Source of the DNA: a virus
Length of the DNA stretch: 47,574 nt
Strand: one strand, 5' to 3'
Virus record (IMG/VR): IMGVR_UViG_3300049002_000009
Location: 1 to 47,574 of that record
Notes under the pieces: model-generated
What the model was told of the DNA's origin: nothing
Databases searched by the model: none
Seen by the model: the letters and a program-made list of their open reading frames with translations, nothing else
Part shown: in pieces, positions 12,585 through 33,403 of the stretch
How the letters are laid out: each line of letters opens with the position of its first letter
Position numbering within the stretch: position 1 is the first letter of the stretch
Program-made: the position numbers and the translations under genes

Positions 12585-13057
12585 GCAAAGCCTCCCAACG
12601 TAAGACACGGCCTAGGGAGAACAAAATCTCAGGGACGGACCGTAAATAAAACTGGGCCCCGGCCTGTTGGGCGCGGTCTCCCCCCCCCCCGTGCGGTGCG
12701 GCAGGGTTTGGGCCTGGGCGTGGGGGGTGGGGTATGGGCTTCAGCACACCCGATGCGTGAGCCTGCTCGCACACGCACACACATGGGCACACGCGGGGAT
12801 GAGCACGCACACAGCCATCCTCTCGATGCCCGATATGCGGGGGTACGAACGCAAGGGGGCACCCAGCGCAGGGCCTTAGCGTCGCCTTACGAGCCCCGGA
12901 AACAGCGCGTCGCGGACCGAACAGGGGCGAAACGGGGCTACAGACCCGAAAGGGCGTGCTCACGGTCGGCAGCACACGGGCTTAGACACGCCCTACGAAG
13001 CCCACACGATAGGTGCGCCGCACATCTACACGGGCGCAAACGGACCGACGAGCAGTG
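12585..13057 (-). other. Gene-free stretch between the terminase subunits, candidate packaging or regulatory site
   Basis: This 473-base stretch contains no convincing gene on either strand. It has a run of 11 C residues (12680-12690), an alternating purine-pyrimidine stretch (CA/CG-rich, about 12768-12808), and an 8-base-pair inverted repeat AGGGCGTG/CACGCCCT (12951-12958 and 12987-12994) with a competing GTGCT/AGCAC stem inside it. A short T-rich segment on the minus strand (12643-12651) follows a GC-rich block. Phage cos or pac sites often lie next to terminase genes; that assignment is inference. Confidence 0.4.
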
Positions 13058-13228
13058 CTAGGGACGGTCTTGTCCCTGCTTGTTCTTCTTGGTTGCTTGG
13101 TCGACTAGCTTGTCTACGCGTTCTCGCTCGCGGGGTGCTCGTGTTTTGAGCACGGCGCTTGCTAGGAGCACGAGTAGTAGTCCGATGATGGCGAGTGCTG
13201 CGATCCAGAGCAGCGGGTCGCCTTTCAT
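13058..13228 (-). CDS. Small membrane protein (56 aa)
   Basis: ATG at 13228 overlaps the terminase small subunit stop (ATGA). Residues 6-27 (LLWIAALAIIGLLLVLLASA) form one transmembrane helix, followed by a basic cytoplasmic tail (RAPRERERVDKLVDQATKK). Its position between the terminase subunits is unusual. Holin-like or membrane-tethering roles are possible but not supported by a motif. Confidence 0.75.
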   Translation of the reverse strand: MKGDPLLWIAALAIIGLLLVLLASAVLKTRAPRERERVDKLVDQATKKNKQGQDRP

Positions 13229-13701
13229 GCTGCTTGGGCTTCTTCGGCTGAGAGTTCTTCTGCGGTGCTGTCGATGAGGTAGCCCTGTTTTTCGAGGCCG
13301 CGGAGGATGTCGTCTGCTGTGCGGTGTTCGGTGATGCTGGTGGGGCGGCCTTCCATGAGCGCGATTTTGTCGATGGCGAGCGCCGCGGTCTTGATGAGGT
13401 TGAGGCCTGATTGTCCGGGTTCGCGTGTTCTGCCGGCGAGCAGGTTTTTTTCTTCTTGCTTGACGGCGATGAGGCTGACGCGTACGGCGGTTTGGGCGAG
13501 GTTGCGGAATTCGTCGATGCAGGCTTGGTCGATGAGTCGTGCGCGGTTGTTGAGGATGTGTTCGTAGCGTTCGGGCTGGTTCTTCGTCCAAGACCGGATG
13601 GTGCTGCTGGGGATGCCTGTGTGTTCTGAGGCTTGTTCGCTGTCTCCGAGTACGGCGAGTGCTGTTAGGCCGCGTTCGATGTCTGCGTCGGCGTAGGCCA
13701 T
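13225..13701 (-). CDS. terS: Terminase small subunit
   Basis: The 158-residue protein starts MAYADADIERGLTALAVLG. Its N-terminal 50 residues form a helix-turn-helix with the phrase SEHTGIPSSTIRSWTK, as in DNA-recognition domains of small terminases. This is followed by a helical oligomerisation region (ACIDEFRNLAQTAVRVSLIA). It lies upstream of the large subunit with only a small membrane gene and a gene-free stretch between. It recognises the packaging site and regulates the large subunit. The start directly abuts the upstream stop. Confidence 0.78.
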   Translation of the reverse strand: MAYADADIERGLTALAVLGDSEQASEHTGIPSSTIRSWTKNQPERYEHILNNRARLIDQACIDEFRNLAQTAVRVSLIAVKQEEKNLLAGRTREPGQSGLNLIKTAALAIDKIALMEGRPTSITEHRTADDILRGLEKQGYLIDSTAEELSAEEAQAA

Positions 13702-13881
13702 CTAGCGGCTCCTGTTGTGTTCGTACTGGGGCCTGTTGTCGATGCTCGCGTAGAACGCTATGAGGCGTTCTGTGGGCGTAGCTTGGGCAGGCGCCGTTGT
13801 GTTCCGCGTGGGCGTGTCGGCCGGTGTTGGGGCCGTTGAGCACGGAGCGTGGTACTTAGGGTACATGGTGCCCTTGCGCAT
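13702..13881 (-). CDS. Small hypothetical protein, Thr/Pro-rich (59 aa)
   Basis: ATG at 13881 follows the ASCH gene by one base, and the stop directly abuts the small terminase start. The N terminus (MRKGTMYPKYHAPC) is basic, the middle (residues 14-37) is rich in Thr, Pro and Ala and probably disordered, and the C terminus has a helix (ERLIAFYASIDNRPQY). No family was recognised. The tight spacing supports expression as part of the operon. Confidence 0.62.
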   Translation of the reverse strand: MRKGTMYPKYHAPCSTAPTPADTPTRNTTAPAQATPTERLIAFYASIDNRPQYEHNRSR

Positions 13882-13882
13882 G

Positions 13883-14578
13883 TCACATCGCTTCGTGTCG
13901 TGGTGTGCGGCGTTCGAGGGCTTTGGCGATCTGTTCGACGCTGCGGGCTGCGCGTCGTGTATCGAGGCCGGCTGCTCTGGCTTGGGCTTCTGCGTGGGCG
14001 AAGCGGACCGCAGCTTCTGCGCGTCGTTGGCTGCTTTGGTCTGTGGTGCGTGCTTCGTAGATGCGTTTGGCTTCGGCGTCCACGAATGCCTGCGGCGCCA
14101 ATGGGAGTTCGTCTATGGCGTTGCGTGGGTTGCTTGTGGCTTGGCGTGCTGTGAGGCGTCCACTACTGCGGGTCATCCATTGGTCGGGTTCTTCGGCTAG
14201 GGCGAGGGTTAGGACGTGGACAATGGTGCCTGTGTGCTTGAGGAAGCGTTGGGCGATCTCTTCGTCTGTGCGGTCGAATTGGTCTTGTCCAGATCGGCTC
14301 ATCCAGCTCTTGTCGTGGTGGATGAGCCATGCTCGTTTGAAGTTGAGGGGGCCGCGTACGCCGGGGTAGCCTTCGCGTTTGGCTTCGTCGCGTGTGAGGT
14401 CGCGTAGCTCGCGTCGTTCGATCCCGATGATTTGGGCGTGGCAGACAGTGCGGGTGCCGTCGTGGTCGCGCACCATGATCGGTAGTCGGGCGCCTACGCG
14501 TAGGGTGTCGTGGGTTGTGTGGTGCGTTGTTTTGCGCTGGCTGGCGATGGCGTCGGCTTGCTGGCGTGGGAGGATCAT
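13883..14578 (-). CDS. ASCH-domain protein (231 aa)
   Basis: I start the gene at ATG 14578, coupled by ATGA to the upstream gene, instead of a longer arginine-rich reading. Residues about 28-95 (VGARLPIMVRDHDG, VCHAQIIGIERRELRDLT, PLNFKRAWLIHHDKSW) fit the ASCH (PUA-like) fold, a small RNA- or nucleotide-binding barrel common in phages. The C-terminal 100 residues are helical and charged (RRAEAAVRFAHAEAQARAAG). A role in RNA binding or translation control is family inference. Confidence 0.65.
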   Translation of the reverse strand: MILPRQQADAIASQRKTTHHTTHDTLRVGARLPIMVRDHDGTRTVCHAQIIGIERRELRDLTRDEAKREGYPGVRGPLNFKRAWLIHHDKSWMSRSGQDQFDRTDEEIAQRFLKHTGTIVHVLTLALAEEPDQWMTRSSGRLTARQATSNPRNAIDELPLAPQAFVDAEAKRIYEARTTDQSSQRRAEAAVRFAHAEAQARAAGLDTRRAARSVEQIAKALERRTPRHEAM

Positions 14579-14775
14579 CGGGCGAACGGTCCCCAGTCTT
14601 GTTGGAGCTTGAGGACGGCGTTGTGGGCTTTCACGGCGTGGTCCGCGAGCTGCGGGGTGTCCAGTAGACCGATGAGTGCGTCGGTGTCGTGGGGCTCGTC
14701 GCCGTTTTGCGCGTAGATGGTGCGGCCAACCTTCCGTCCGGTGCGCCACGGCATCGTGAGCGGGTCGGGACTCAT
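14575..14775 (-). CDS. Hypothetical protein (66 aa)
   Basis: It starts with ATG at 14775 (MSPDPLTMPWRTGRKVGRTI), overlapping the upstream stop by ATGA, and overlaps the ASCH gene in the same way. The N terminus matches a short beta hairpin with GRKVGRTIYAQ; the C terminus is a helix with HAVKAHNAVLKLQQDWGPF. No family was recognised. Confidence 0.68.
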   Translation of the reverse strand: MSPDPLTMPWRTGRKVGRTIYAQNGDEPHDTDALIGLLDTPQLADHAVKAHNAVLKLQQDWGPFAR

Positions 14776-14939
14776 TGGAGTGCTGCTCCGATGCCGCCGC
14801 CGATGAGTGCGCCGAGTAGTCCCCCGAAGATCCATGCTGGGCCTAGGAGTGCCCAGCCGTCTTGCTGTCGTACGGCGATCCTGCCTGCGATCCATACGCC
14901 GAGGATGCAGCCGGCGATCGCTCCTATTGCGATTCTCAA
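14772..14939 (-). CDS. Small glycine-rich membrane protein (55 aa)
   Basis: The predicted start is TTG at 14939, coupled to the upstream stop (TTGA). Two transmembrane segments are visible: residues 2-18 (RIAIGAIAGCILGVWIA) and residues 34-53 (AWIFGGLLGALIGGGIGAA), joined by a short QQDGW-containing loop. The GxxxG patterns suggest helix packing. Such two-helix proteins near terminases may be holins or superinfection-exclusion proteins; neither is shown. Confidence 0.6.
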   Translation of the reverse strand: MRIAIGAIAGCILGVWIAGRIAVRQQDGWALLGPAWIFGGLLGALIGGGIGAALQ

Positions 14940-15040
14940 CAGGCCCCGAGTCCGCAGAGGGCGCGGTGGAGGAGTTCCGTGGCGTATGTGAGCGCTACGC
15001 CTACTTGCACGAGGAGGTCGAGGATGGCTTGTGGGGTCAC
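14936..15040 (-). CDS. Very small amphipathic protein (34 aa)
   Basis: GTG at 15040 overlaps the upstream stop (GTGA), and the stop overlaps the next start. The peptide is one long helix (AILDLLVQVGVALTYATELL) with two cysteines near the C terminus. It belongs to a run of four tiny hydrophobic proteins (14772-15222). Coupling on both sides supports a real gene, but its size limits confidence. Confidence 0.55.
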   Translation of the reverse strand: MTPQAILDLLVQVGVALTYATELLHRALCGLGAC

Positions 15041-15222
15041 GCTGAGCCCGTGAGGATGAATTGGATGGCGTTGACGGCGCCGCGGATGATGAGGACTTGA
15101 ACGCCGTCCACGATGAGGTTCGTTCCGCCTTGGATGGCGTCCAGCGTGATGTTGAGGCCGCCGCTGATGGCGTGGATCAATGTGGGGCCGATGACGGGGA
15201 TCTGTTCGAGGAGCCTTAGCAC
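15037..15222 (-). CDS. Small hydrophobic protein opening the late operon (61 aa)
   Basis: The GTG start at 15222 has a textbook ribosome binding site, AGGAGG six bases upstream. The sequence is hydrophobic throughout (EQIPVIGPTLIHAISGGLN, LIVDGVQVLIIRGAVNAI) and resembles an amphipathic membrane-associated helix pair. It is the first gene of the leftward late transcript, with the divergent promoter region immediately upstream. Confidence 0.7.
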   Translation of the reverse strand: MLRLLEQIPVIGPTLIHAISGGLNITLDAIQGGTNLIVDGVQVLIIRGAVNAIQFILTGSA

Positions 15223-15327
15223 GCGTCGCCTCCTGGGGTCGCTCAGAATCGTAGTGCTTTGCGGACCACGGTACCCTGTGCTGGCATGACATCACGCAAG
15301 ATACCTCAGCGGTAGCCCGGTGCTGGT
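15223..15327. promoter_or_regulatory. Divergent intergenic region with repeated promoter-like elements
   Basis: The region separates the leftward late operon from a rightward membrane-protein unit. On the plus strand two copies of CGGTA-SC followed by GCTGG-Y-ATG occur at 15269-15288 and 15310-15330. A third is at 16299-16318. The second and third copies end in the ATG of real genes. The first copy ends in an ATG that opens a nine-codon reading frame (15286-15315, MTSRKIPQR). TACCCT and TAGCCC are possible -10 boxes. The minus-strand promoter was not identified with confidence. Confidence 0.45.
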
Positions 15328-15558
15328 ATGGCACCGGAGAGCCAGGGATGGTCGCAACGCGCATTGGATCAGTTGTCGAAGCGCGTGGATGCCCTTGAGA
15401 TCGCGTTTGCGCGTCTGATCGGCGTCAAGCCTACGGATGAGCAGTTGGCTGACCCGAAGATGTTTCGGTTGGGCGTGAAGGATTGGATTGGGATTGCGGC
15501 AACGATCGTTGTGCCGCTTGCGATAGCAATCTTGGGCATCAAGTACGGGGTAAAGTGA
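15328..15558 (+). CDS. Coiled-coil plus single transmembrane protein, holin-accessory-like (76 aa)
   Basis: It starts with ATG at 15328 (MAPESQGWSQRALDQLSKRV). Residues 10-32 form a short amphipathic coiled coil; residues 53-70 (WIGIAATIVVPLAIAILG) form one C-terminal transmembrane helix. This layout matches XhlA-like or holin-associated phage proteins. There is no ribosome binding site. The ATG sits at the end of a CGGTAGC...GCTGG promoter-like repeat, so a leaderless or nearly leaderless message is likely. The function call is by layout only. Confidence 0.72.
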   Translation: MAPESQGWSQRALDQLSKRVDALEIAFARLIGVKPTDEQLADPKMFRLGVKDWIGIAATIVVPLAIAILGIKYGVK

Positions 15559-15562
15559 TCTG

Positions 15563-16297
15563 GTGCCTCCTGTGTTCGTTCTCGCAGGCATCGGCGCGTC
15601 GTTGGCTCTCACGGCTTGGGTGTTTCGTCGGCGTTGGCTCGCTTGGTGGCATGAGCCGATCGTTACGAAACGCTGGCATTTGTACGTGGGGGCGTTGGCG
15701 GGGAGCCTCGCGATTGTCGTTGCGCTCGGCTTCAACTTTCAGCAGCGGGAAGCGAACAAGCGTCAGGACGCTGCGGCTAGGACTGCGTTGGCGAACCGGA
15801 TTCTTGATCGGCAGGAAATCGCGGGGATAGCGCAAGCCCAAGCGATCCTTTTGCGCCCGTCGAATGCAGAGCGCAACCGGCGGAACCTCGTGGCGCTCAA
15901 ATCGTGCGTGAAGTCGGGGGAGTGCCGCAAGCTGCTGACGACGATCGTTGTGCGGACGCTTGAGCCGGCGATGGTGCCGATCCCTGGTTCGGCGCGGCCT
16001 GTCAAGACGATCATTGTTCACGGGAAGCCCGGGAAGACCGGCGCTACTGGAGCTACTGGGGCGCCTGGGGCCGCGGCGACCGTTCCGAGTCTCGCTTCGC
16101 TGAGGCGCCAGGTTGATCAGCTCATGGGTGCAGTGAGGGACCTCCAGTCCCGCAAGACCGACAGCAGCATCGGGAACGGGCTCGACAATCGCCTGACGGA
16201 CGCTGAGAGGGTCCTTCAGAGCGTCGTGAGCCATGTTGCGGGGCTCGACAAGGTCGTTGGGTTGCTGTGCCGCGTTTTGACGCCTGGGCGCTGCTAG
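15563..16297 (+). CDS. Membrane protein with collagen-like segment (244 aa)
   Basis: The GTG start at 15563 lies five bases after the upstream stop. Transmembrane segments cover residues 4-20 (VFVLAGIGASLALTAWV) and 44-59 (AGSLAIVVALGFNF). A charged helical stretch follows (QQREANKRQDAAARTALANR). Residues about 154-169 are collagen-like triplets (GKPGKTGATGATGAPGA). The C terminus is a coiled coil (SLASLRRQVDQLMGAVRDLQ), then SSVI-like helices and two cysteines. It is probably a trimeric membrane-tethered extension. A role in lysis or surface modification is possible; no family was recognised. Confidence 0.68.
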   Translation: MPPVFVLAGIGASLALTAWVFRRRWLAWWHEPIVTKRWHLYVGALAGSLAIVVALGFNFQQREANKRQDAAARTALANRILDRQEIAGIAQAQAILLRPSNAERNRRNLVALKSCVKSGECRKLLTTIVVRTLEPAMVPIPGSARPVKTIIVHGKPGKTGATGATGAPGAAATVPSLASLRRQVDQLMGAVRDLQSRKTDSSIGNGLDNRLTDAERVLQSVVSHVAGLDKVVGLLCRVLTPGRC

Positions 16298-16315
16298 ACG
16301 GTAGCGTTCGCTGGT

Positions 16316-16441
16316 ATGTCGCCCTTGGCCCGCATGTGGCGGTGCACCACCGAGGGCTGCCCAATCAGGCTGTACCACCCGGGGCCGTTCTGCCCGCACT
16401 GTCATCGTCGCGGGCTGTTAGCGAAGCTCAAGCCCTTGTAA
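16316..16441 (+). CDS. Zinc-ribbon mini-protein (41 aa)
   Basis: ATG at 16316 ends a copy of the repeated CGGTAGC...GCTGGTATG element. The peptide (MSPLARMWRCTTEGCPIRLY, then a CPHC knuckle) has cysteines in a CX4C...CX2C arrangement, the spacing of a small zinc ribbon, and a basic C terminus (RRGLLAKLKPL). It is too short for routine gene calling. The promoter-like repeat and the cysteine pattern support it. Confidence 0.6.
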   Translation: MSPLARMWRCTTEGCPIRLYHPGPFCPHCHRRGLLAKLKPL

Positions 16442-16474
16442 GGACGTGCAACGTGGGGGTTGCGCGTGATTCGC

Positions 16475-16528
16475 GCGCCATACATGCAGCTTTTGCGGCG
16501 CAGGCTTGCTCGGCTGCATGTATGGCGC
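16475..16528. repeat. Perfect 16-bp inverted repeat with 22-base loop
   Basis: GCGCCATACATGCAGC at 16475-16490 is the exact reverse complement of 16513-16528. The 22-base loop is GC-rich. No T-run follows on either strand, so it is not a standard intrinsic terminator. It could be a protein-binding site, a structured RNA or a recombination site. Confidence 0.8.
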
Positions 16529-16984
16529 ATCTCCGCGAGCGTTGGTCGCAGCCGCAAACGCCGAATTCTGCTTCTCCGTGTCAAGCAGGGTTGCGCACGG
16601 GTGCTCGCGCGCTGTTGAAACCTTCAGCGTTCTTATGCATGCAGACATCAGCGGTGGCGCTTGGCTCCAGTGTGGCTTGCCTCGCATTGCGGCTACCTGC
16701 TTGCTTCGAGGGGTAGACAGCGGCCGTGGGGCGAGGCCGACACGCTGTGGTGCTTGCCTGCTGCGGGTGTCTGCTTGCTTCGGCAAGACGTTTGCGGTAG
16801 ACGATGCCCCTTCGGCCCGACCACCCGAAACTGCGAAGGTTTGCTGCGACGATCCGTCCTCGCGATACACAGCCGTCTCCCGTGGGTCCTTGGGTCGCTT
16901 CGCGCGGGGCGTGAGTTCCACATCCTGATCCGGCTCTGACCCGGTAGTGCGGTGCGAGGAGGCGTTGGGCCTGAGTGCTCGCTG

Positions 16985-17034
16985 CTTCCGCAGTAGCCGC
17001 TAACGCTTTGGTTTGGCGGCTGGTCTTGCGGAGG
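16985..17034. repeat. Nested double stem
   Basis: An outer stem CTTCCGCA/TGCGGAGG (16985-16992 with 17027-17034, one G-T wobble) encloses an inner stem AGCCGC/GCGGCT (16995-17000 with 17016-17021) with a 15-base loop. Two-base and five-base joints separate the stems. This is more elaborate than a terminator and suggests a folded RNA. Confidence 0.55.
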
Positions 17035-17086
17035 AGGCTACGGGTTCGCTAGGCTACCCGGAGCGTCCTCAACAAGCGCCAGCATA

Positions 17087-17126
17087 CATGAAGCCCCGTC
17101 GTGAGGTCAACCGGCGGGGCTTCATG
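17087..17126. terminator. Bidirectional terminator-like hairpin between convergent transcripts
   Basis: CATGAAGCCCCG (17087-17098) is exactly complementary to 17115-17126, giving a 12-base-pair GC-rich stem with a 16-base loop. It lies just beyond the stop of the leftward operon (17130) and downstream of the rightward unit at 15328-16441. There is no T-tract, as is common for terminators in high-GC Gram-positive bacteria. Confidence 0.7.
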
Positions 17127-17129
17127 GTG

Positions 17130-17336
17130 CTAGGGGCAGCGGAGCTGTTCGAGGAAGCGCCATGTGGCGCTGAAGGTATCGGCGTTGCGGATCTTGACGA
17201 CGAAGCCTGCTTGTTCGCCGTGTTGCTTGAGCTTGGCGATCTCGTCGGGGTTGCTTGTGGCGACGGTGTAGTGCGCCGTGTTGTCGTCGGGGCCGTAGCG
17301 GTCGCATAGCTGCACGATCTGGATGCGCTCTCTCAT
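17130..17336 (-). CDS. Small hypothetical protein, last gene of the leftward early operon (68 aa)
   Basis: It starts MRERIQIVQLCDRYGPDDNT after AAAGG. It has an alternating alpha/beta pattern (AKLKQHGEQAGFVVKIRNA) and a Trp-Arg-Phe motif close to the C terminus. No transmembrane segment or zinc motif is seen. It is followed by the 17087-17126 hairpin. Function is unknown. Confidence 0.7.
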   Translation of the reverse strand: MRERIQIVQLCDRYGPDDNTAHYTVATSNPDEIAKLKQHGEQAGFVVKIRNADTFSATWRFLEQLRCP

Positions 17337-17364
17337 CGTGGCGGGCCTTTCGATGCGTTGAGGC

Positions 17365-17448
17365 TCAGGGTCGTGTGGCGCCGTGCATCCATCGGAGGAT
17401 GAGGACGATCAGGACAAGCCAAACGGCTGGGAGGATGAGGAGGGTCAT
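17365..17448 (-). CDS. Miniature membrane protein (27 aa)
   Basis: ATG at 17448 overlaps the upstream stop (ATGA). The peptide is one hydrophobic helix (MTLLILPAVWLVLIVLILRW) with a short polar tail. Coupling and the continuous hydrophobic segment support it, although its size makes the call tentative. Confidence 0.5.
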   Translation of the reverse strand: MTLLILPAVWLVLIVLILRWMHGATRP

Positions 17449-17642
17449 TCGTTGTCGAGTGGGCGCGCTGGTTTGAGCGGCCCGAAGTAGCAGCGGCGTC
17501 CGAAGCCGACGACTCTTGCGGTGGTGTTGCGGCCGGCTGCGTCGATGCGTATACGGGTGCCTTTAGCGACCGGGCGGGTAGCGCGGTAGGTGTAGGTGCG
17601 TCCGTGGTTCGTGAGGCGGACGCGAACGATGCGGCGTTTCAT
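17445..17642 (-). CDS. Small basic beta-barrel-like protein (65 aa)
   Basis: I chose ATG at 17642 because it overlaps the upstream stop (ATGA); a GTG nine bases earlier is also in frame. The sequence alternates basic and aromatic residues (RIVRVRLTNHGRTYTYRATR) and ends PLKPARPLDNE. It is compact and beta-rich, like small nucleic-acid-binding barrels. No family was recognised. Confidence 0.65.
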   Translation of the reverse strand: MKRRIVRVRLTNHGRTYTYRATRPVAKGTRIRIDAAGRNTTARVVGFGRRCYFGPLKPARPLDNE

Positions 17643-17788
17643 CGCGGCCACTTCCAGATGCCGGTCTTGCCGAGTGCGCGGCCGATGAGGATGTTCTTGA
17701 CGCGGTTCGGGATGCGCTTGGGGTGCAGGATGGCGTCCGTGTTGTTCGCCCAGCGTGCCGCGGTGTACAGCTTGCCGTGGAGGCTCAT
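17639..17788 (-). CDS. Short conserved-type phage protein 'MSLHGKLY-AARW' (49 aa)
   Basis: ATG at 17788 overlaps the upstream stop. The sequence MSLHGKLYTAARWANNTDAI, then RVKNILIGRALGKTG and WKW, closely follows a pattern often seen in small proteins of actinobacteria and their phages (amphipathic N terminus, NxxxGRxLGKxG). The function of that family is unknown to me. The basic amphipathic helix could bind nucleic acid or membrane. Confidence 0.72.
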   Translation of the reverse strand: MSLHGKLYTAARWANNTDAILHPKRIPNRVKNILIGRALGKTGIWKWPR

Positions 17789-17913
17789 GGCTTGCCGCGG
17801 AGTTGGCGTTGGAGGCGACGGGTTTGCGTCAGGCTGCGAGCGCGATGTCCGCGTCGGCTGTCGGCGCGTAGCGTCCGCATCTTGCGGACTGCTGCTCGTG
17901 GGTCGAGGTTCAT
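17785..17913 (-). CDS. Arginine-rich small protein (42 aa)
   Basis: ATG at 17913; stop coupled to the next gene (ATGA). Fourteen of 42 residues are Arg or Lys (for example RKMRTLRADSRRGHRARS). Likely a nucleic-acid-binding peptide, or a fortuitous frame retained because of high GC. Coupling supports expression. Confidence 0.5.
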   Translation of the reverse strand: MNLDPRAAVRKMRTLRADSRRGHRARSLTQTRRLQRQLRGKP

Positions 17914-17949
17914 GGTGGTTGGTCTTCCCTTCGATGATTGTTGGTGGCG

Positions 17950-18144
17950 CTAGTTGATCTGGGGCTGGTTGACTTCGTGGTGGGGGTTGTTCCATGGGTC
18001 GTCCCATTGCACGACGACGGCGATGTTTTGCGCGCGCTCCGTGCAGTCCTGGCAGATGCGGCTGTGGGCGTGCATGCCGGTTAGGGCGGTGGCTACGGGC
18101 CATTCGGGGGCTTCGCAAACCTCGCAGATAGCATTGCGGCTCAT
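17950..18144 (-). CDS. Zinc-ribbon protein (64 aa)
   Basis: It begins MSRNAICEVCEAPEWPVATA. Cysteine pairs CEVC (residues 7-10) and CQDC (near residues 31-34) form a CX2C-X20-CX2C zinc knuckle. The acidic C terminus contains WDDPWNNPHHE. Many early phage proteins have such knuckles, which bind host proteins or nucleic acids. No specific partner is visible. Confidence 0.7.
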   Translation of the reverse strand: MSRNAICEVCEAPEWPVATALTGMHAHSRICQDCTERAQNIAVVVQWDDPWNNPHHEVNQPQIN

Positions 18145-18146
18145 GG

Positions 18147-18335
18147 CTAGTTCTCCCGTGCCTTGTCGGTGGGGTACATGCGGCCGTAGAGTCCCTGGAG
18201 GAACATGGGGTAGTGCTGGAGGTCGAGGTCGAAGTCGTAGTGCTTGCGGGGTTCGTCGTGGCCGGGTTCGTCTAGGCCGAGTTCGTATGTGGGTTGGCCC
18301 CAGGCGTATGGGGGATGCAGGCAGGGATGGGGCAT
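18147..18335 (-). CDS. Small acidic aromatic-rich protein (62 aa)
   Basis: The likely start is ATG at 18335 (MPHPCLHPPYAWGQPTYELG); a GTG at 18344 is also in frame and overlaps the upstream stop. The protein is rich in Tyr, His, Pro and Asp (HYDFDLDLQHYPMFLQGLYG). No motif was recognised. Confidence 0.6.
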   Translation of the reverse strand: MPHPCLHPPYAWGQPTYELGLDEPGHDEPRKHYDFDLDLQHYPMFLQGLYGRMYPTDKAREN

Positions 18336-18337
18336 GG

Positions 18338-18538
18338 TCAGCACGACTCTCCGTTGGCGATTGTGTGCATGGCCGCGTTGTCAAGTTCGCGTTGCTCCGA
18401 GTCTGTGAGGCGACCGTGGAGTCCGAAGTCCCGGGCGAACCAATGGGAGTTGCCGTCTGTGATGTACGCCTCGCGTCCGGTGGACGTTGTTCCCGTCCAT
18501 CCGCGCTGTGTCCGTTGCACTGTCGTCTCGCTGTTCAT
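18338..18538 (-). CDS. Small hypothetical protein with a leaderless start (66 aa)
   Basis: ATG at 18538 (MNSETTVQRTQRGWTGTTST) begins seven bases after the -10 box GACAAT, which predicts a leaderless message; the ATG at 18547 lies inside the -10 box and is rejected. The sequence includes TDGNSHWFARDFGLHGRLTD and a C-terminal helix. It is the first gene behind the 18546-18574 promoter and leads a run of leftward genes to 17130. Confidence 0.68.
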   Translation of the reverse strand: MNSETTVQRTQRGWTGTTSTGREAYITDGNSHWFARDFGLHGRLTDSEQRELDNAAMHTIANGESC

Positions 18539-18545
18539 GGTTCCC

Positions 18546-18586
18546 ATTGTCTTACAACAGGAGGCTCGCGTCAAGCGCGCTTGCAC
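18546..18586 (-). promoter_or_regulatory. Leftward promoter with palindromic operator (site C)
   Basis: On the minus strand the -35 box TTGACG (18574-18569) and -10 box GACAAT (18551-18546) are 17 bases apart. The palindrome GTCAAGC-GC-GCTTGCA (plus-strand positions 18570-18584) overlaps the -35. The same palindrome occurs at 21268 and 30673, so a common phage regulator is likely. Confidence 0.75.
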
Positions 18587-19955: not shown

Positions 19956-20275
19956 CGGCGTCCTTTCACGATTTGGTCTACGCGCTGACGACTAAGCCCA
20001 CGATCCTGGGGGGACGCGTCCGTGACGAGCTGCGCGATGGTGGAAGCGCGCGGCGGCTTGCCCGTACCAGCGCAGTCCGCGCAAGGCCAGTCGTGGTCGG
20101 TGTCGATGGACGCGAAGCTGCGTCCATCGCCACCGCATTGCGGGCACACCTCTGCTTCGAGTAGCGTTCGGATTGCCGCGTCCCGCTGCTGTTGCGCGAG
20201 CGTCGAGTCGTCTTGGCCGGCGAGCGCGCGTAGGTGATGCGCGATGATCGTTTGAACGGACGGAGGGGTGGTCAT
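19952..20275 (-). CDS. Zinc-finger protein with helix-turn-helix-like C terminus (107 aa)
   Basis: It starts MTTPPSVQTIIAHHLRALAG. Two DnaJ-type knuckles, CPQCGGDG and CADCAGTG, occupy residues 44-72. The C-terminal LSRQRVDQIVKGRR resembles the recognition helix of a sigma-70-like or Rep-type HTH. It may be a DNA-binding regulator. Coupled to its neighbours by ATGA. Confidence 0.7.
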   Translation of the reverse strand: MTTPPSVQTIIAHHLRALAGQDDSTLAQQQRDAAIRTLLEAEVCPQCGGDGRSFASIDTDHDWPCADCAGTGKPPRASTIAQLVTDASPQDRGLSRQRVDQIVKGRR

Positions 20276-20601
20276 GCGCTGGCCTTGAGCTGAATGGCGC
20301 GCCGTTCGCCCGAGTCCGTCAGGGCATACGCGGTTCCGGAGAGACCATCCGGTCGTCCGCGATTCGCGATTAGCTCACGTCCACGCAGCCCCGTGAGTGA
20401 TCCGATAACACGCTGTGCGGGACCCATCGAACCAGACCATGTGGTGCTTGCGCGTCGAGCGCGATTGGCGTTGAGACCGATAGCGCAGGCTATGTCGTTC
20501 GGTGGCATGGGGTAGTGGTAGTGCGCGGTGGGACCGTGCTTGGCGTCGAGTAGGGCCATAAGCACTTGCTCTTGGCGTTCTGTGAGGGGCCGCGTGTTCA
20601 T
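20272..20601 (-). CDS. Winged helix-turn-helix DNA-binding protein (109 aa)
   Basis: The N terminus (LTERQEQVLMALLDAKHGPT) and PPNDIACAIGLNANRARRAS form a winged-helix recognition pattern. They are followed by a wing-like RGRELIANRGRPDGLSGTAYALTDSGERR segment read across two blocks. This is the layout of MarR/IclR-like wHTH regulators in phages. It is a candidate early transcription regulator. Which operator it binds cannot be told from sequence. Confidence 0.7.
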   Translation of the reverse strand: MNTRPLTERQEQVLMALLDAKHGPTAHYHYPMPPNDIACAIGLNANRARRASTTWSGSMGPAQRVIGSLTGLRGRELIANRGRPDGLSGTAYALTDSGERRAIQLKASA

Positions 20602-21023
20602 CGTCCTGCCTCCAGTTCCCGCATGTCCTCTTGCACGGTTTCCAGCGCGATATCCATTCGGGTCGCCCGGTTGGTGCCCGCGAGCGTGCTGTGCCGTACG
20701 CGCTCCAGTGCGTCGCGGACCTCGTTGAGGACGGCGCGTGCCTCATCGTGCCTTGTGATGACGGGGTGCACGCCTCCGCAGAGGTCGGCGCGCAGTGCGG
20801 GGTGCATGTGCAAGGCGGCGAGGGCTTCCGCGCGGGACAGGGCGGCGCTGCGTTCGTCTCCGACGCAGCTGGCATGGAATGCGTTGCGGTAGTGCGTCGC
20901 GGCATCGTGCAGGGCGTCCGCACGTTTGGCCGCTTTGAGTGCGAGCGTGATGTCTGCGTGTTGCGCATCCGTCCACCGGGGCGTCTCGAACGGCTCCGTG
21001 CGGCCAAAGTCACGATTGAGCAT
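20598..21023 (-). CDS. Helical hypothetical protein (141 aa)
   Basis: It starts MLNRDFGRTEPFETPRWTDA. The body is alanine-rich and helical (LALKAAKRADALHDAATHYR, AVLNEVRDALERVRHSTLAG), with one Cys-Gly-Gly-Val-His turn. It resembles coiled-coil accessory proteins; no family was recognised. ATGA overlap with the next gene. Confidence 0.68.
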   Translation of the reverse strand: MLNRDFGRTEPFETPRWTDAQHADITLALKAAKRADALHDAATHYRNAFHASCVGDERSAALSRAEALAALHMHPALRADLCGGVHPVITRHDEARAVLNEVRDALERVRHSTLAGTNRATRMDIALETVQEDMRELEAGR

Positions 21024-21205
21024 CAGGACGCCAGTCGTGTGCGTCGGGTCTCGTAGGCTGTGATGTAGACGGTGTACGCCGCCTCAACGAGCCCCCGTAG
21101 TTCGGAGGTAGTCATGTCGTCAACGATCGCGCGAAGGCGCTCAGCGTCGTTATTCATGGCGGCTAGCAGCGCCTCGGTCTCGGTGTAGGGCGTCTCGGTG
21201 GTCAT
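21023..21205 (-). CDS. Small acidic protein opening the leftward early operon (60 aa)
   Basis: ATG at 21205 follows GAGGGGGAG. The protein (MTTETPYTETEALLAAMNND) is acidic and helical with DDMTTSELRGLVEAAYTVYI. It is the first leftward gene behind the bidirectional promoter at 21244-21307, about 39 bases downstream of the minus-strand -10 box. Function unknown. Confidence 0.72.
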   Translation of the reverse strand: MTTETPYTETEALLAAMNNDAERLRAIVDDMTTSELRGLVEAAYTVYITAYETRRTRLAS

Positions 21206-21243
21206 TTACTCTGTGCTCCCCCTCGGGTTGCTTTCCGCCTCCC

Positions 21244-21307
21244 ATTCTCCCGCCCCACACCTTGTTTGTCAAGCGGGCTTGCATTCCGTGGGGGGACCTG
21301 CGACAAT
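21244..21307. promoter_or_regulatory. Bidirectional early promoter with shared palindromic operator (site A)
   Basis: On the minus strand TTGACA (21272-21267) and GAGAAT (21249-21244) are spaced by 17 bases. On the plus strand TTGCAT (21279-21284) and GACAAT (21302-21307) are also spaced by 17. The two -35 boxes meet in one palindrome, GTCAAGC-GG-GCTTGCA (21268-21282). A single bound regulator would therefore block both promoters. The rightward transcript continues into GTACCCCA (21314-21321). Confidence 0.85.
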
Positions 21308-21348
21308 GACCCGGTACCCCAGAACCACGAAGCAGGGAGAAGACAGAA

Positions 21349-21543
21349 ATGGCAGCGATGGAAAGGGCTGAGACTGGTCGCGATGGCTTCGTGATCCGCT
21401 CACACGAAGACGGCAGCGAGATCGATTTCATCGCCTGCACAAAGGATGGGCGCATGCGCGACAAGGTTGAGATGGGCCTGTTGATGCGCGTCGATCCGGA
21501 GTGCTTCTATTTCGAAGACACCCGGTGGGCTCCTGGTGCTTGA
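21349..21543 (+). CDS. First gene of the rightward early operon (64 aa, unknown)
   Basis: ATG at 21349 has AGGGAGAA upstream. The acidic protein (MAAMERAETGRDGFVIRSHE) has beta-hairpin-like GSEIDFIACTKDGRM and a C-terminal CFYFEDTRW. No domain was recognised. It lies 42 bases after the rightward promoter. Confidence 0.72.
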   Translation: MAAMERAETGRDGFVIRSHEDGSEIDFIACTKDGRMRDKVEMGLLMRVDPECFYFEDTRWAPGA

Positions 21544-21763
21544 TTACGTGTTGTTGGCGCGGGCTCGGAAGATGCTCGCGGACGAAGCAACAGAACTACA
21601 CGCTCAGGCGCGCACGAGGCTGTGCATGAGTGCAATCAGCACACGCATCGTGACCGCTGAGGCGTGCGAGTACGCCGCGCAGAGTTTGCATAACGTGTTG
21701 TCGAAGGCGGACGCGTTCCTTGACGACGAACAGGCACGGGAGGCACTACGCGATGGCGCGTGA
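21536..21763 (+). CDS. Helical hypothetical protein (75 aa)
   Basis: GTG at 21536 overlaps the upstream gene by eight bases. Sequence: MLDYVLLARARKMLADEATE, then a helix with ACEYAAQSLHNVLSKADAFL. It is acidic to neutral and probably all-alpha. No family was recognised. Confidence 0.68.
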   Translation: MLDYVLLARARKMLADEATELHAQARTRLCMSAISTRIVTAEACEYAAQSLHNVLSKADAFLDDEQAREALRDGA

Positions 21764-22439
21764 AGTCACAGAGCCGACGCAGGACCAATACGGCGCTGAG
21801 GTTCACCCGTCGTGGGCGATGATCGGTGCTAGTCGAGTGTCGCACGGAGGATGTGGGGCGTCGCTGTTCGACAGCGACATCCTGCATCAGCACACCGTGA
21901 CCGTGCGCATCAGCACTGCATCACGCAGGCGCGACCTCAACCACGATTGGCTGCACCCGGAACAGGAGTTCATGGAGGTTGAGCTGAGCGAAGCTCAGTG
22001 GGCATCGTTCGTGTCCTCAATGAACGTCGGGTCGGGCGTGCCCTGCACACTCCGTAGTCGTGAGGGCGACTATCTTGTGCCCGAAGCGCCGCATGAGCCA
22101 CGGTTGCAGGAGTCGATGAACGAAGTCCGTGACGCTGCTGAGCGTGCGGCGGAGCAGGTCAGCGAGGCGTTCGCGGTCTACAAGGCACACAAGACTGTGG
22201 GGAATCTACGCTCGCTGGAATACGCCATCGCGAACATGCCGTCCAATATCACGTTCGCTGCTAGCTCGCTGTCCGAGCACGCCGAGAACGTCGTGCAGCG
22301 TGCACGCGCGGACATCGAAGCGATGGTTGTTACGAAGGCGCATCAGCTTGGCTTGGAGCCCGCGGACCTCGGCGTTACGGCGCCGCAGCTGTCGGCTGGA
22401 TCGTCTACGGAAATCTTGGAGGCACTACGCCATGAGTGA
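21753..22439 (+). CDS. Hypothetical protein with C-terminal coiled coil (228 aa)
   Basis: ATG at 21753 with GGGAGG upstream (MAREVTEPTQDQYGAEVHPS). The N-terminal 110 residues are beta-rich with a Trp-rich SEAQWASFVSSMNVGSGVP segment. From residue 120 onward the protein is a long charged helix (EVRDAAERAAEQVSEAFAVY, VVQRARADIEAMVVTKAHQL). Similar proteins with this beta head and helical tail occur in early regions of other phages. Function unknown. Confidence 0.7.
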   Translation: MAREVTEPTQDQYGAEVHPSWAMIGASRVSHGGCGASLFDSDILHQHTVTVRISTASRRRDLNHDWLHPEQEFMEVELSEAQWASFVSSMNVGSGVPCTLRSREGDYLVPEAPHEPRLQESMNEVRDAAERAAEQVSEAFAVYKAHKTVGNLRSLEYAIANMPSNITFAASSLSEHAENVVQRARADIEAMVVTKAHQLGLEPADLGVTAPQLSAGSSTEILEALRHE

Positions 22440-23321: not shown

Positions 23322-23632
23322 GCGATGACAACTGGGCGATCTGTCCGAAGTGTCTCGACATTGCGCAGCACGAGGCCGCGAAGGAGCACCGACGCATCAT
23401 GGACCTTTATGGTTCCGTGCCCGTCGAGGAATTCGACAAGCTCCGCGACGCACTCAAGCCTATTGAACCGGAGACATATCGCACGTTCCGCGAGGACTAC
23501 GAATTCTACGGCGCTGTAAGCGGTGAGATAACGGCGTCCTACTCAGGGCACTGCACCGTCTGTGACCTCGGTTTGGACTTCGAGGACAAGCGACCGTTCT
23601 ACCCTGGACTTGAGCGCGAGGTGGAGGCATGA
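23318..23632 (+). CDS. Zinc-ribbon protein (104 aa)
   Basis: ATG at 23318 follows AGGAAGG. Cysteine pairs CPKC (residues 9-12) and CTVC (about residues 79-82) form a split zinc ribbon; the intervening part is acidic and helical (AAKEHRRIMDLYGSVPVEEF). It lies immediately before the RecT-like gene with an ATGA overlap and may assist recombination. Confidence 0.7.
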   Translation: MSDDNWAICPKCLDIAQHEAAKEHRRIMDLYGSVPVEEFDKLRDALKPIEPETYRTFREDYEFYGAVSGEITASYSGHCTVCDLGLDFEDKRPFYPGLEREVEA

Positions 23633-24459
23633 CCGACAGCACGTCTCTCGCTGCCCCCGCCTATGACAGCATCGATAAGCGGCGTCTTGACCTGATCCGC
23701 AAGACGGTCGCGAAGGGCGCCACGGACGCGGAACTAGCATCGTTTCTGGAACTGGCGAAGAAGTACGATCTTGATCCGTTCGCGCATGAGGTGTGGTGCG
23801 CGATCTCGCAGCGGGATGGCGGGAACCGCAACGTCCTGATCATGGTCGGGCGTGCCGGCTTGCGGAAGATCGCGCAGCGCCAGGGCCTACGGATCGACGG
23901 GGATGTGGTGCGCACCAATGACCAGTTCACAGTCACGCGCAAGGCAGACCGAACCCGTGCCATTGAGCATGCGTACAGCGAAGGAACTATCGATGGAAAG
24001 AAGGTTGACCGCGGGCCTATCGTCGGGGCGTGGGCGGAAGTTCGTGAGGCTGCCTACGGCCAGCAGCGCGGCTACTTCTACGCGCCCTTGAGCGAGTACA
24101 AACCCACGAACCCAAAGAAGCTCCAGTACTCGCCGTGGGGGTCGCAGGAATCCACGATGATCCTCGCGGCAGCCGAACGGCAGGCTATCGCGATGGCAAC
24201 CCCGCTGGGTGGGCTGCACGCGGAAGGCGAGACGCCCGCGCTCACGGGCAGCGTTGTGCCCGAGCTGGACGCTGCGCCCGAGCCTGAGCTTCCCGACGCT
24301 GCCCTGCTCGTTGTGCAGCACGCGGTTGAGAACGGGCACGCCCAACTCAGCGATCCCGCGACCGTCGCGATGATGGTCAGCGGCATGACCGACGAGACGC
24401 TGAAGACGTGGGCTGAGGAAACACACGCCGAACTCGACAGGACAAGGGAGCAAGCATGA
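23629..24459 (+). CDS. RecT/Bet-family single-strand annealing protein
   Basis: 276 residues. The family signature is clear: LASFLELAKKYDLDPFAHEV, then WCAISQRDGGNRNVLIMVGR, AGLRKIAQRQGL, and the AWAEVREAAYGQQRGYFYAP block. The C terminus is acidic and variable. RecT-like proteins anneal complementary single strands and load on resected ends; with the nuclease at 26070 it would form a phage recombination pair. ATGA overlaps at both ends. Confidence 0.9.
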   Translation: MTDSTSLAAPAYDSIDKRRLDLIRKTVAKGATDAELASFLELAKKYDLDPFAHEVWCAISQRDGGNRNVLIMVGRAGLRKIAQRQGLRIDGDVVRTNDQFTVTRKADRTRAIEHAYSEGTIDGKKVDRGPIVGAWAEVREAAYGQQRGYFYAPLSEYKPTNPKKLQYSPWGSQESTMILAAAERQAIAMATPLGGLHAEGETPALTGSVVPELDAAPEPELPDAALLVVQHAVENGHAQLSDPATVAMMVSGMTDETLKTWAEETHAELDRTREQA

Positions 24460-28234: not shown

Positions 28235-28612
28235 ATGGCTGACACGGCGCAGGAACGAGTAGTCGCGCTATTCACGGGCTCCCGCGGCTGGAAGGACTGG
28301 GAAGCCATCAAGCACGACGTGTACGCGCTTCCGATGCACGCCCTCGTGGTGCACGGCGCGTGTCCCAGTGGAGCCGACAGGATGGTTCAGAGAGCCGCAG
28401 AGGGCCGCGGCCTTCATGTCGCCGCCATCGGAGCAAGATGGGATTGCTACGGCAAAGCCGCGGGCTACAAGCGCAACGCCGTGATGCTGCTCACGCAGCC
28501 CACGATCGTGTACGCCTACCCGTTGGGTGCATCCCCAGGGACCCGCATGATGATACGACTCGCGCAGGACGCCGGGATTCCCGTGCTGGACCGCTCGCCC
28601 GTTATCGCATGA
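28235..28612 (+). CDS. SLOG-family protein (DUF2493-like, 125 aa)
   Basis: The N terminus (MADTAQERVVALFTGSRGWK) carries the FTGSRxW nucleotide-binding turn, followed by ALVVHGACPSGADRMVQRAA, the HGxCxxGAD signature of the DUF2493/YspA SLOG family. The C terminus is alpha/beta (VMLLTQPTIVYAYPLGASPG). SLOG proteins bind small nucleotide-derived ligands. It overlaps the MT-A70 gene by ATGA. Confidence 0.82.
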   Translation: MADTAQERVVALFTGSRGWKDWEAIKHDVYALPMHALVVHGACPSGADRMVQRAAEGRGLHVAAIGARWDCYGKAAGYKRNAVMLLTQPTIVYAYPLGASPGTRMMIRLAQDAGIPVLDRSPVIA

Positions 28613-30482: not shown

Positions 30483-30673
30483 TGGTCTGCGACCGGTGCG
30501 ACGGGGAGGGCAGCTACATGCGTCTCGCGGACTGCACGACGACGGGCCCGGACTGTGCTTGCAACGGGCCTCGCGTGGACGTGGATCCGTGCGAGGTGTG
30601 CGGTGGGTCGGGGGAGTTGACGCCCGAGCGTGCTGTGTCGCGTGAGGCGTTGCCGTGGTACGAACGCAGCTAG
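30479..30673 (+). CDS. DnaJ-type zinc-ribbon protein (64 aa)
   Basis: GTG at 30479 or ATG at 30482. Cysteine motifs CDRCDGEGSYM and CEVCGGSGEL (near residues 4-10 and 39-44), with an additional CACNGP, make a DnaJ-like zinc ribbon. It is the last gene before the site B promoter. Confidence 0.7.
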   Translation: MMVCDRCDGEGSYMRLADCTTTGPDCACNGPRVDVDPCEVCGGSGELTPERAVSREALPWYERS

Positions 30674-30712
30674 TCAAGCCTGCTTGCATTCTGGGTTGAG
30701 GGAGCGTAGGCT
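30673..30712 (+). promoter_or_regulatory. Rightward promoter with palindromic operator (site B)
   Basis: TTGCAT (30684-30689) and TAGGCT (30707-30712) are 17 bases apart. The palindrome GTCAAGC-CT-GCTTGCA (30673-30687) overlaps the -35, matching sites A and C. GTACCCCA follows at 30722-30729, and then a GAAGGGAG binding site precedes the ATG at 30748. The upstream operon appears to read through into this point. Confidence 0.72.
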
Positions 30713-30747
30713 GTAAGACACGTACCCCAGTTGAAGGGAGCAACACA

Positions 30748-31017
30748 ATGGAGATCGACAAGCAGCCGACTGGGCTTGAGCCCGGTGCACCATGGCGACA
30801 CGTCAACCGTCACGGAGTGGCACGGCGCTACACCGTGGATCGCACGGCGCTGGGACCTCCTGGTAGGGCTGTCTTTCTGACGTGCCTTGAGCCGCGCCAC
30901 GCGCCCGTTGAGGGTTACGTCGGTGGTTTGGCCCATGAGGCACGAGTACTTGCCACGAGTCTTCATCAGCGCCCGAGCGAAGGACGGGACGGCTGGCTTC
31001 CGGGACATACGTCATGA
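30748..31017 (+). CDS. Hypothetical protein, first gene of the site B unit (89 aa)
   Basis: ATG at 30748 after GAAGGGAG. The protein (MEIDKQPTGLEPGAPWRHVN) is rich in His, Arg and Pro with a beta-rich centre (VARRYTVDRTALGPPGRAVF). No family was recognised. Confidence 0.68.
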   Translation: MEIDKQPTGLEPGAPWRHVNRHGVARRYTVDRTALGPPGRAVFLTCLEPRHAPVEGYVGGLAHEARVLATSLHQRPSEGRDGWLPGHTS

Positions 31018-31348: not shown

Positions 31349-31757
31349 GCGTATGTGGACATGCAAGCGTGTCCAGTCAGGCGTGCAGTGCGCTGCGAGC
31401 AACCCCGCACGCAAACGCAACTGCACACGCTGCGGGAAACCCAGGCAGCGGCGGGAAACCAGCAAAACCCGGCACATGCAGGTCTTACGCGACCTTAGCT
31501 ATGAGGAGTGCGTGCGGATCAACGGGGGGGAGCACTGCGGCATCTGCGGCGCTGGCCCGGTGAGCAAGCGGCTGCAACGCGACCACGAACACAAGGGCAA
31601 GGGGGCGCTGCGTGGACTGCTCTGCTACCGCTGCAACATCGCCCTGCCGGACTACGTGACGCTGGAATGGATGTACACCGCTGTCAAGTACCTAGAACGT
31701 TTTGAGCAACGAAGGGAAGCGGATGCAAACGGTGGAGATCATGGTCGCGGGACGTAA
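31341..31757 (+). CDS. Endonuclease VII-type HNH nuclease with N-terminal zinc knuckle (138 aa)
   Basis: ATG at 31341. The recombination endonuclease VII core is clear: CGIC (residues 66-69), LQRDHEHKGKGALRGLLCYR (DH at 81-82) and CYRCN (95-99). An extra N-terminal finger WTCKRVQSGVQC...CTRCGKPR (C8, C17, C28, C31) is RanBP2-like. Such nucleases resolve branched DNA before packaging or act as homing nucleases. Confidence 0.85.
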   Translation: MPERMWTCKRVQSGVQCAASNPARKRNCTRCGKPRQRRETSKTRHMQVLRDLSYEECVRINGGEHCGICGAGPVSKRLQRDHEHKGKGALRGLLCYRCNIALPDYVTLEWMYTAVKYLERFEQRREADANGGDHGRGT

Positions 31758-32391
31758 CGTGCGACGCGTCACGGAAGACGAAAAGGCCGTGATGCGCCGC
31801 CTACGCGACGAAGACAACGAATCGTATGAGGAGATCGCGAATAAGACCGGGCGCACCATCTCCTGCGTGTACAGGTACCTCAACGGCCGCAAACCAAAGC
31901 GCAAACGACCACAGAAACCGAAGCTGAAAATCGTGCGCACCGAACCGCCACCCATAAGGATCCCGTCCCGCCGCACGTTTGCGGCCCCGGACAGCCGGGC
32001 CGGCGACATTGAGGCCGCGCCGCTCCTCAGAGCGTCGTTGATGGAAGCCCTACGGTTGACGGGTACCCTTGCGCATGGTCGCGGGATCGTGGCGCAGCGC
32101 GCGGGGGTGAGCGTCCGGTCGTTCTTCGCGTGGCAGACGGGGGAGCGGACACACACGACACTCGATACGGCGGACAGGTTGCTCCTCGCGATCGAGCGTA
32201 ACTGGTGGGAGGTGTATGACCCGCAGACCAACCCGCCCGGGTTGTTCAAGCCACGCCGCTGCGATGACGTGCTCGCGTGGCTTGATGTGGTGGACCGTGC
32301 GTCCCGGTTGTGGGATGGGGAGGTTCTCTTGGGCCCGGATGACCCGGTGCTGGAGGCTGAGCGCGTCGCGGCACTGGAATGGGCAGCATGA
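31723..32391 (+). CDS. HTH protein with two putative DNA-binding modules (222 aa)
   Basis: I start at ATG 31723 because GAAGGGAA precedes it; an in-frame TTG at 31702 has none. N-terminal HTH: SYEEIANKTGRTISCVYRYL (resolvase-like). A basic linker KPKRKRPQKPKLKIVR follows. A second HTH lies near residues 110-155 (GIVAQRAGVSVRSFFAWQTG). The C terminus is acidic. Candidate regulator, perhaps the one that binds the GTCAAGC palindrome; not testable from sequence. Confidence 0.72.
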   Translation: MQTVEIMVAGRNVRRVTEDEKAVMRRLRDEDNESYEEIANKTGRTISCVYRYLNGRKPKRKRPQKPKLKIVRTEPPPIRIPSRRTFAAPDSRAGDIEAAPLLRASLMEALRLTGTLAHGRGIVAQRAGVSVRSFFAWQTGERTHTTLDTADRLLLAIERNWWEVYDPQTNPPGLFKPRRCDDVLAWLDVVDRASRLWDGEVLLGPDDPVLEAERVAALEWAA

Positions 32392-32576
32392 CCCTGCTTA
32401 GGCGCGGCTACGTCCAAATCGAGGACGGCGATGGTGCTCGTGGCGAGGCCATCGCCATTCGTGACGGCGATGCAACGGTGCTGCTCTCCCCCGACGATTT
32501 GCGTTGGCTGTGCCTTGTTGCTGGGCCCGCCCTCCTGAACGAGCTAGGCAAGGAGGCCACCCGTGGCAACGATTGA
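32388..32576 (+). CDS. Small beta-strand protein (62 aa)
   Basis: ATG at 32388 overlaps the upstream stop (ATGA). MTLLRRGYVQIEDGDGARGE and VLLSPDDLRWLCLVAGPALL suggest a beta-hairpin plus helix. Overlaps the next gene by 14 bases. Function unknown. Confidence 0.62.
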   Translation: MTLLRRGYVQIEDGDGARGEAIAIRDGDATVLLSPDDLRWLCLVAGPALLNELGKEATRGND

Positions 32577-33027
32577 CAGGACCCCCCAGGCAGCAAACCA
32601 CCGACGCCAACGAGCAGCACACCTACGCCGCGGCGGGTACAGCAACACGCGGATCGCTGAGGAGATCGGGGTTGACCGCAGCGTCGTGTACCGCTGGCTA
32701 GGCCCCACACCCGCGGAGCTACGTGTTCGCTGGCACTCCAAGGAAACGCGGGACAAGGCTGCACGATTGCGCAAGGAGGGGTTGAACAACGCACGGATCG
32801 CGAAGAAGCTGGGTGTTGGGGAGCGCACAGTCTGGGACTGGATCGGCTCGACCCCAACCGCGCTGCGGTCCAACCGCGACTACTCGCGGACGAACCTGCC
32901 GGATCGCGCCCTGCACCTCAGGCAGTGTGGTTACAGCGTTCGTGAGGCCGCGGCGCACATGGGGATCCCGGTGTCCACGGTCGGGCAGTGGGTGAAGGGG
33001 TACGGGCGCTATGGACTCCTCGACTGA
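32563..33027 (+). CDS. Triple helix-turn-helix protein (154 aa)
   Basis: GTG at 32563 preceded by AAGGAGG. Three tandem HTH units are visible: GGYSNTRIAEEIGVDRSVVY (about residues 24-43), EGLNNARIAKKLGVGERTVW (about 72-91), and CGYSVREAAAHMGIPVSTVG (about 126-145). Each is homeodomain- or transposase-like. The protein is basic and probably binds DNA at repeated half-sites. Confidence 0.82.
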   Translation: MATIDRTPQAANHRRQRAAHLRRGGYSNTRIAEEIGVDRSVVYRWLGPTPAELRVRWHSKETRDKAARLRKEGLNNARIAKKLGVGERTVWDWIGSTPTALRSNRDYSRTNLPDRALHLRQCGYSVREAAAHMGIPVSTVGQWVKGYGRYGLLD

Positions 33028-33403
33028 GCTGGCTCTCGTGCGCGAACTCCGCTACGTGGACGGCCTGACGTGCGGTGCCGTCGCTGCACGCATCGGACGA
33101 TCCGACAGGTACGTGCAACGTCTCGCCCCTGGACGCCCCGGCAAGATCGACAACACACTGATACGCGAAGCGTTCCTACGATCCGGGTGCAGCGCTCACG
33201 AGGTAGCACGCGATCTCGATTGGTACGGGGGTGGCAAGCTCGATGGTACGCGCGTGAAGCAAACTCTGGGGCTCGTTGAGACTGTAGGTGGTCACGGCCA
33301 ACGGTACCGTCAGTACCGTCGCCTGATCGACGCAGAGACGGCCAGTCTGATCGCGGAAGCCATCGGCGTAGCACCCTGGGAAGTCGGCTGCCGAGATGAC
33401 TAG
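33011..33403 (+). CDS. Helix-turn-helix protein (130 aa)
   Basis: Overlaps the upstream gene by 17 bases. GLTCGAVAARIGRSDRYVQR forms an HTH near residues 18-37; a second weak one is SGCSAHEVARDLDWYG near residues 58-73. The protein is basic with a C-terminal helix. Part of a three-gene cluster of likely regulators. Confidence 0.7.
   Translation: MDSSTELALVRELRYVDGLTCGAVAARIGRSDRYVQRLAPGRPGKIDNTLIREAFLRSGCSAHEVARDLDWYGGGKLDGTRVKQTLGLVETVGGHGQRYRQYRRLIDAETASLIAEAIGVAPWEVGCRDD

Follow-up and report, generated by a model that had tools for sequence, protein, structure and literature searches.

A 16-base near-palindrome as the probable common off-switch for several transcription units in an uncultivated phage

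A 16-base near-palindrome that recurs in the genome of an uncultivated phage probably serves as its shared off-switch. The window analyzed here is the whole 47,574-nucleotide stretch of virus record IMGVR_UViG_3300049002_000009. It begins and ends with the same 127 bases (an exact direct terminal repeat, 1-127 = 47448-47574). The simplest reading is therefore a complete genome of 47,447 bp that was assembled as a circle; the genome search classed the record among linear records or fragments. Across the whole window, the pattern GTCAAGCNNGCTTGCA, with 14 fixed bases, occurred exactly at 18570, 21268, and 30673, each time on the plus strand. We consider it rather probable that a sequence-specific regulator uses this pattern as its operator and governs these three sites and four promoters through it. 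Judged from the sequence, the repeat is operator-like and real, with good statistical support, and the regulon it would define is larger than the original prediction stated.

The copy at 21268-21283 (GTCAAGCGGGCTTGCA) is an imperfect palindrome that lies over the -35 boxes of two back-to-back, sigma70-like promoters. The leftward promoter (21244-21272, minus strand) consists of the -35 hexamer TTGACA (21272-21267) and the -10 hexamer GAGAAT (21249-21244), and the rightward promoter (21279-21307, plus strand) of TTGCAT (21279-21284) and GACAAT (21302-21307), both with a 17-bp spacer. These two divergent promoters had been predicted at 21244-21307, and their sequence, spacers, and coordinates were confirmed. 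The original prediction had also described a palindrome, with the arms GTCAAGC and GCTTGCA around GG, and placed it between the -35 boxes. CAAGC and GCTTG indeed pair exactly, but the outer GT and CA are unpaired, so the palindrome is imperfect; moreover, the 16-mer GTCAAGCGGGCTTGCA does not lie between the boxes but overlaps both, covering five of the six bases of each hexamer. The leftward promoter matches 10 of the 12 sigma70 consensus positions, the highest score among the four sites in the whole window that reach at least 9/12, and the motif is present at two of these four sites. With +1 taken as seven bases after the -10 hexamer, the dyad position computed from the sequence is -38.5 relative to both predicted starts, which lie near 21237 (minus strand) and 21314 (plus strand); for the promoters at the other two copies described below, the predicted starts are near 18538 (minus strand) and at about 30719 (plus strand).

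The second copy (GTCAAGCGCGCTTGCA, 18570-18585) is located between two leftward genes and lies over a leftward promoter (18546-18574, minus strand, TTGACG-17-GACAAT). The ATG of the downstream gene (18538-18536) begins at the expected +1 of this promoter, and the mRNA may thus be leaderless. The third copy (GTCAAGCCTGCTTGCA, 30673-30688) occupies the gap between two rightward genes and lies over a rightward promoter (30684-30712, plus strand, TTGCAT-17-TAGGCT). All three copies are found in gene gaps, outside called genes, except that the third copy shares its first base with the end of the preceding stop codon. Each copy covers the -35 box of a predicted promoter with a -10-like hexamer at 17-bp spacing. 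The element GTACCCCAG is found at the predicted +1 of the rightward promoter of the first copy (21314-21322, plus strand) and again downstream of the promoter at 30673 (30722-30730, plus strand), and the leaders of these two copies resemble each other (local score p = 0.017). Since the leader sequence is shared, the identity of the 21268 and 30673 sites could in part stem from duplication of a promoter cassette. A candidate fourth copy at 16580 (two mismatches) was rejected: its minus side has no -10 hexamer and its plus side reaches 3/6 at best.

Against the three observed occurrences, the background models gave an expected count of 0.0004-0.0017 for GTCAAGCNNGCTTGCA in the window. When all words of the near-palindromic form 7-k-7 (k = 0-10) were scanned, GTCAAGCNNGCTTGCA was the only one present three times in this genome, and the same scan found no three-copy word of this kind in 11 related contigs. 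In third-order Markov simulations, a comparable three-copy word appeared in 1 of 20. Taken alone, such a repeat count has a probability of about 5% when all words are considered; in addition, the words coincide with predicted promoters. The outer GT/CA asymmetry is retained in all three copies, in one orientation. A simple symmetric homodimer does not require such an asymmetry, which counts against the regulon reading. It would be compatible with a reader that binds as a two-domain monomer, or with descent of the sites from duplicated promoters.

Next to the first copy, the leftward operon begins with a 60-aa gene (21023-21205, minus strand) that has an SD-like GGGGGAG and no family match above cutoff, and the rightward operon begins with a 64-aa gene without a family match (21349-21543, plus strand). 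Farther along, the rightward operon encodes a RecT-family annealing protein (23629-24459, plus strand), a phage-exonuclease-like protein at 26061, and a YspA-like SLOG-family protein (28235-28612). Its early timing is inferred only from the RecT and exonuclease genes. The protein encoded at 21720-22439 belongs to phrog_6452 (E 2.5e-40) and is about 40% identical to Microbacterium phage proteins, which is a weak hint of an actinobacterial host. Behind the 18570 promoter is a 66-aa gene without a match (18338-18538, minus strand). Between the terminase and this unit, about 5.7 kb (12609-18338) have a low and strand-ambiguous coding signal. The first gene behind the 30673 promoter (30748-31017, plus strand, 89 aa) had no match either, and the unit downstream of this site contains endonuclease VII and three HTH genes. 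An FtsK/SpoIIIE-like protein with weak resemblance to plasmid TraB transfer proteins is encoded at 36728-38164.

In the proposed mechanism, a DNA-binding protein, most likely encoded by the phage in an HTH gene downstream of the controlled promoters, would occupy the site and keep sigma region 4 off the -35 box. One protein bound at 21268 would close both divergent promoters simultaneously and thereby shut two operons, one running leftward from 21205 to about 19298 and one running rightward from 21349 onward. The copy at 18570 would close the leftward promoter of the unit that starts with the 66-aa gene. Binding at 30673 would silence the promoter that precedes the HTH gene cluster 31702-33403 and so create negative feedback. 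The idea of one operator shared by two divergent promoters, as originally proposed, is well supported by the sequence; since two more exact copies lie over predicted promoters elsewhere, the system looks like a small regulon and not just a switch for two promoters.

A special case of this mechanism is Aca-like autorepression, in which strong early promoters are active as soon as the phage enters and are then shut by a small HTH protein from the same operon, without any part in lysogeny. In anti-CRISPR operons, Aca proteins bind inverted repeats within the core promoters (PMC9410906), and the arrangement here is similar in that an inverted repeat lies inside a core promoter, where occlusion of RNA polymerase is presumed. 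It also fits that no integrase was recognized in this complete genome, among the part of the ORFs whose proteins were scanned (a diverged one is possible). However, several transcription units share the site here, and one site common to three units exceeds the one or two repeats per Aca promoter. No Aca or Acr homolog was identified; searches with Pfam, PHROGs, and NCBIfam, libraries other than dedicated Aca models, placed none of the HTH proteins that are present in the Aca family. Because no lysogeny gene was found, Aca-type autorepression stays a serious variant of the repression model, although we regard it as unlikely.

The repeat could also be a by-product of -35 elements preceded by GC (GCTTGAC or GCTTGCA) that are read by a host or phage sigma factor, with the palindrome itself unbound. 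The arms do act as predicted -35 elements wherever a -10 hexamer is present, and the leader shared by the 21268 and 30673 copies, with cassette duplication, can explain part of their identity. To weigh this, all GCTTGAC/GCTTGCA half-sites in the genome were collected. The list held 23 entries, one of them counted twice through the terminal repeat, leaving 22 distinct half-sites, 6 within palindromes and 16 isolated. A -10-like hexamer at a spacing of 17 was found for four of the six palindromic half-sites (three hexamers at 4/6, plus TAGGCT) whereas the 16 isolated half-sites had none (Fisher p = 0.002; p = 0.013 when TAGGCT is left uncounted). The absence of -10 hexamers at isolated half-sites speaks against a by-product. 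So do the two arms that serve no convincing promoter: the left arm at 30673 has a best -10 of only 2/6 at 15-19 bp, and the right arm at 18570 has only TGCAAT at 15 bp, yet these arms are identical in sequence to their counterparts in the other copies and the 2-bp gap is also kept. Such unused arms are more readily explained by protein binding than by two -35 boxes alone, and they argue for recognition of the whole 16-mer as one site. We therefore regard a by-product as quite unlikely.

Alternatively, the site might bind an activator that recruits RNA polymerase to promoters with weak -10 hexamers. The hexamers GACAAT, GAGAAT, and TAGGCT are indeed poor, and the leftward unit from 18538 could feed toward the virion genes. 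However, the -35 boxes are close to consensus and lie inside the site, so that a bound protein would cover them, which favors repression over activation. In addition, class II activators are usually centered near -41.5, compared with the dyad at -38.5 here. Activation thus appears improbable.

Repression by a regulator of the phage itself calls for a gene, and several candidates are encoded in the window. The tentative leading candidate, on the basis of position and domain content, is the product of 31702-32391 (plus strand), a protein of 229 aa that carries an HTH near its N-terminus (about residues 24-63) and may have a second, helical HTH. Its predicted model is of low confidence (pLDDT 51) with a better block over about residues 21-60 (pLDDT 78-90), and the second HTH is doubtful. 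Next come the candidates at 32563-33027 (plus strand, 154 aa, three HTH_23 repeats) and 20272-20601 (minus strand, 109 aa, in the leftward operon, picked as a candidate regulator by eye), or a host protein. The model of the 20272 product is poor (pLDDT 41). Foldseek searches with the predicted models of the 31702 and 20272 products returned only generic XRE/HTH folds, with E values at or above 0.2, and no homologs of these two proteins were found among phage records. No solved structure matched the 32563 product by sequence. Four HTH proteins had originally been listed: the one at 32563 was strongly confirmed by its three HTH_23 repeats, support for those at 31702 and 30270 was weak (for the latter, a weak winged-helix match), and the 20272 product had no HTH match in three libraries. 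The accompanying remark, that the site cannot be assigned to any known phage repressor gene, still holds, as Pfam, PHROGs, and NCBIfam named no CI/Cro-type repressor among the scanned proteins. The first gene on either side of the 21268 operator had no HTH match in the profile libraries, and no regulator gene adjoining the operator in the usual lysogeny-switch layout was found, which counts against the regulon reading.

These negative results would fit a repressor that is a host transcription factor, with the phage copying a host operator to sense the host state and needing no repressor of its own. Nevertheless, several phage HTH proteins are encoded downstream of the controlled promoters, and the motif matches no SOS box known to us. 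We hold a host factor to be as improbable as an activator. An RNA hairpin or terminator was rejected, as no site folds clearly better than shuffled sequences (one strand at 30673 reaches z -1.85, through flanking bases) and the window had no Rfam matches.

The style of control proposed here is known, whereas the operator sequence is new. In lambda OL/OR, divergent promoters are closed by a protein on shared DNA. The divergent region here likewise has promoters that share a site, but it contains one operator copy instead of three and no recognized flanking CI/Cro pair. The closest system in layout appears to be mycobacteriophage BPs, whose gp33 repressor uses 12-bp palindromic operators (PMC4557955). 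In both phages, an identical short palindrome is found at several intergenic sites and serves, by prediction here, several promoters, including one of a divergent pair. However, the BPs core is CGACATATGTCG, compared with CAAGCNNGCTTG here; the BPs OR sits between the -10 and -35 boxes, whereas the site here covers the -35 box; and the full BPs site consists of two half-sites, unlike here. The BPs repressor gene also adjoins its operator, and none was seen beside 21268, where the first genes had no HTH match. Since the core sequence and the neighboring repressor gene differ, the phage may work like BPs but is not a member of this system.

The stoperators of Cluster A phages (L5, Bxb1, and TipsytheTRex) are asymmetric 13-mers oriented with transcription, and L5 and Bxb1 have 24-34 of them per genome (PMC3029335, PMC9283540). 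They resemble the present sites in being scattered through the intergenic gaps of one genome. Furthermore, the 3' part of their consensus (TCAAG) is similar to the left arm, and the fixed asymmetry recalls their asymmetric site; the L5-type repressor of TipsytheTRex is a monomeric two-domain reader (PMC9283540). In contrast to stoperators, only three near-palindromes are present here, in one orientation regardless of transcription. A search with the L5 consensus only (GGTGGMTGTCAAG) gave 33 window matches at up to three mismatches, compared with 25.5 expected, and none with fewer than two mismatches. L5-type stoperators were therefore excluded by number, symmetry, and sequence.

Searches with the portal protein yielded 22 related IMG/VR viral contigs (39-71% identical). 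The contigs examined have capsid, terminase, and tail genes in common with the phage, but almost no early genes. The motif was absent from 11 relatives sharing virion genes, and matches with three mismatches were not in excess over a reversed-pattern control. Searches with the terminase, RecT, exonuclease, and 21720 proteins returned one close relative or none. In viral contigs, the 14-base pattern matched at a rate judged to be chance, with no locus from a close relative, and the 17-base version GTCAAGCNNGCTTGCATTC had no match. As the examined portal relatives lack the motif, the operator appears to be unique to this phage within the set of sequences compared. This lack of conservation, in relatives whose early genes are mostly not homologous, counts against the regulon reading.

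A more specific picture, which we put forward as speculative, is that of a phage that lacks a recognizable lysogeny module and would shut down several units through one pseudo-palindrome of fixed orientation, with arms that double as -35 elements. Its reader would be a two-domain or repeat HTH protein belonging to none of the known phage repressor families. The phage adds a case in which operator sequences diverge while virion genes stay related, with portal proteins 39-71% identical and no trace of the motif. The analysis replaces a guess about two promoters with a defined regulon that can be tested, in a group of phages known solely from sequence, and the 16-bp site can be used as a probe to pick out the regulator from a small set of HTH genes.
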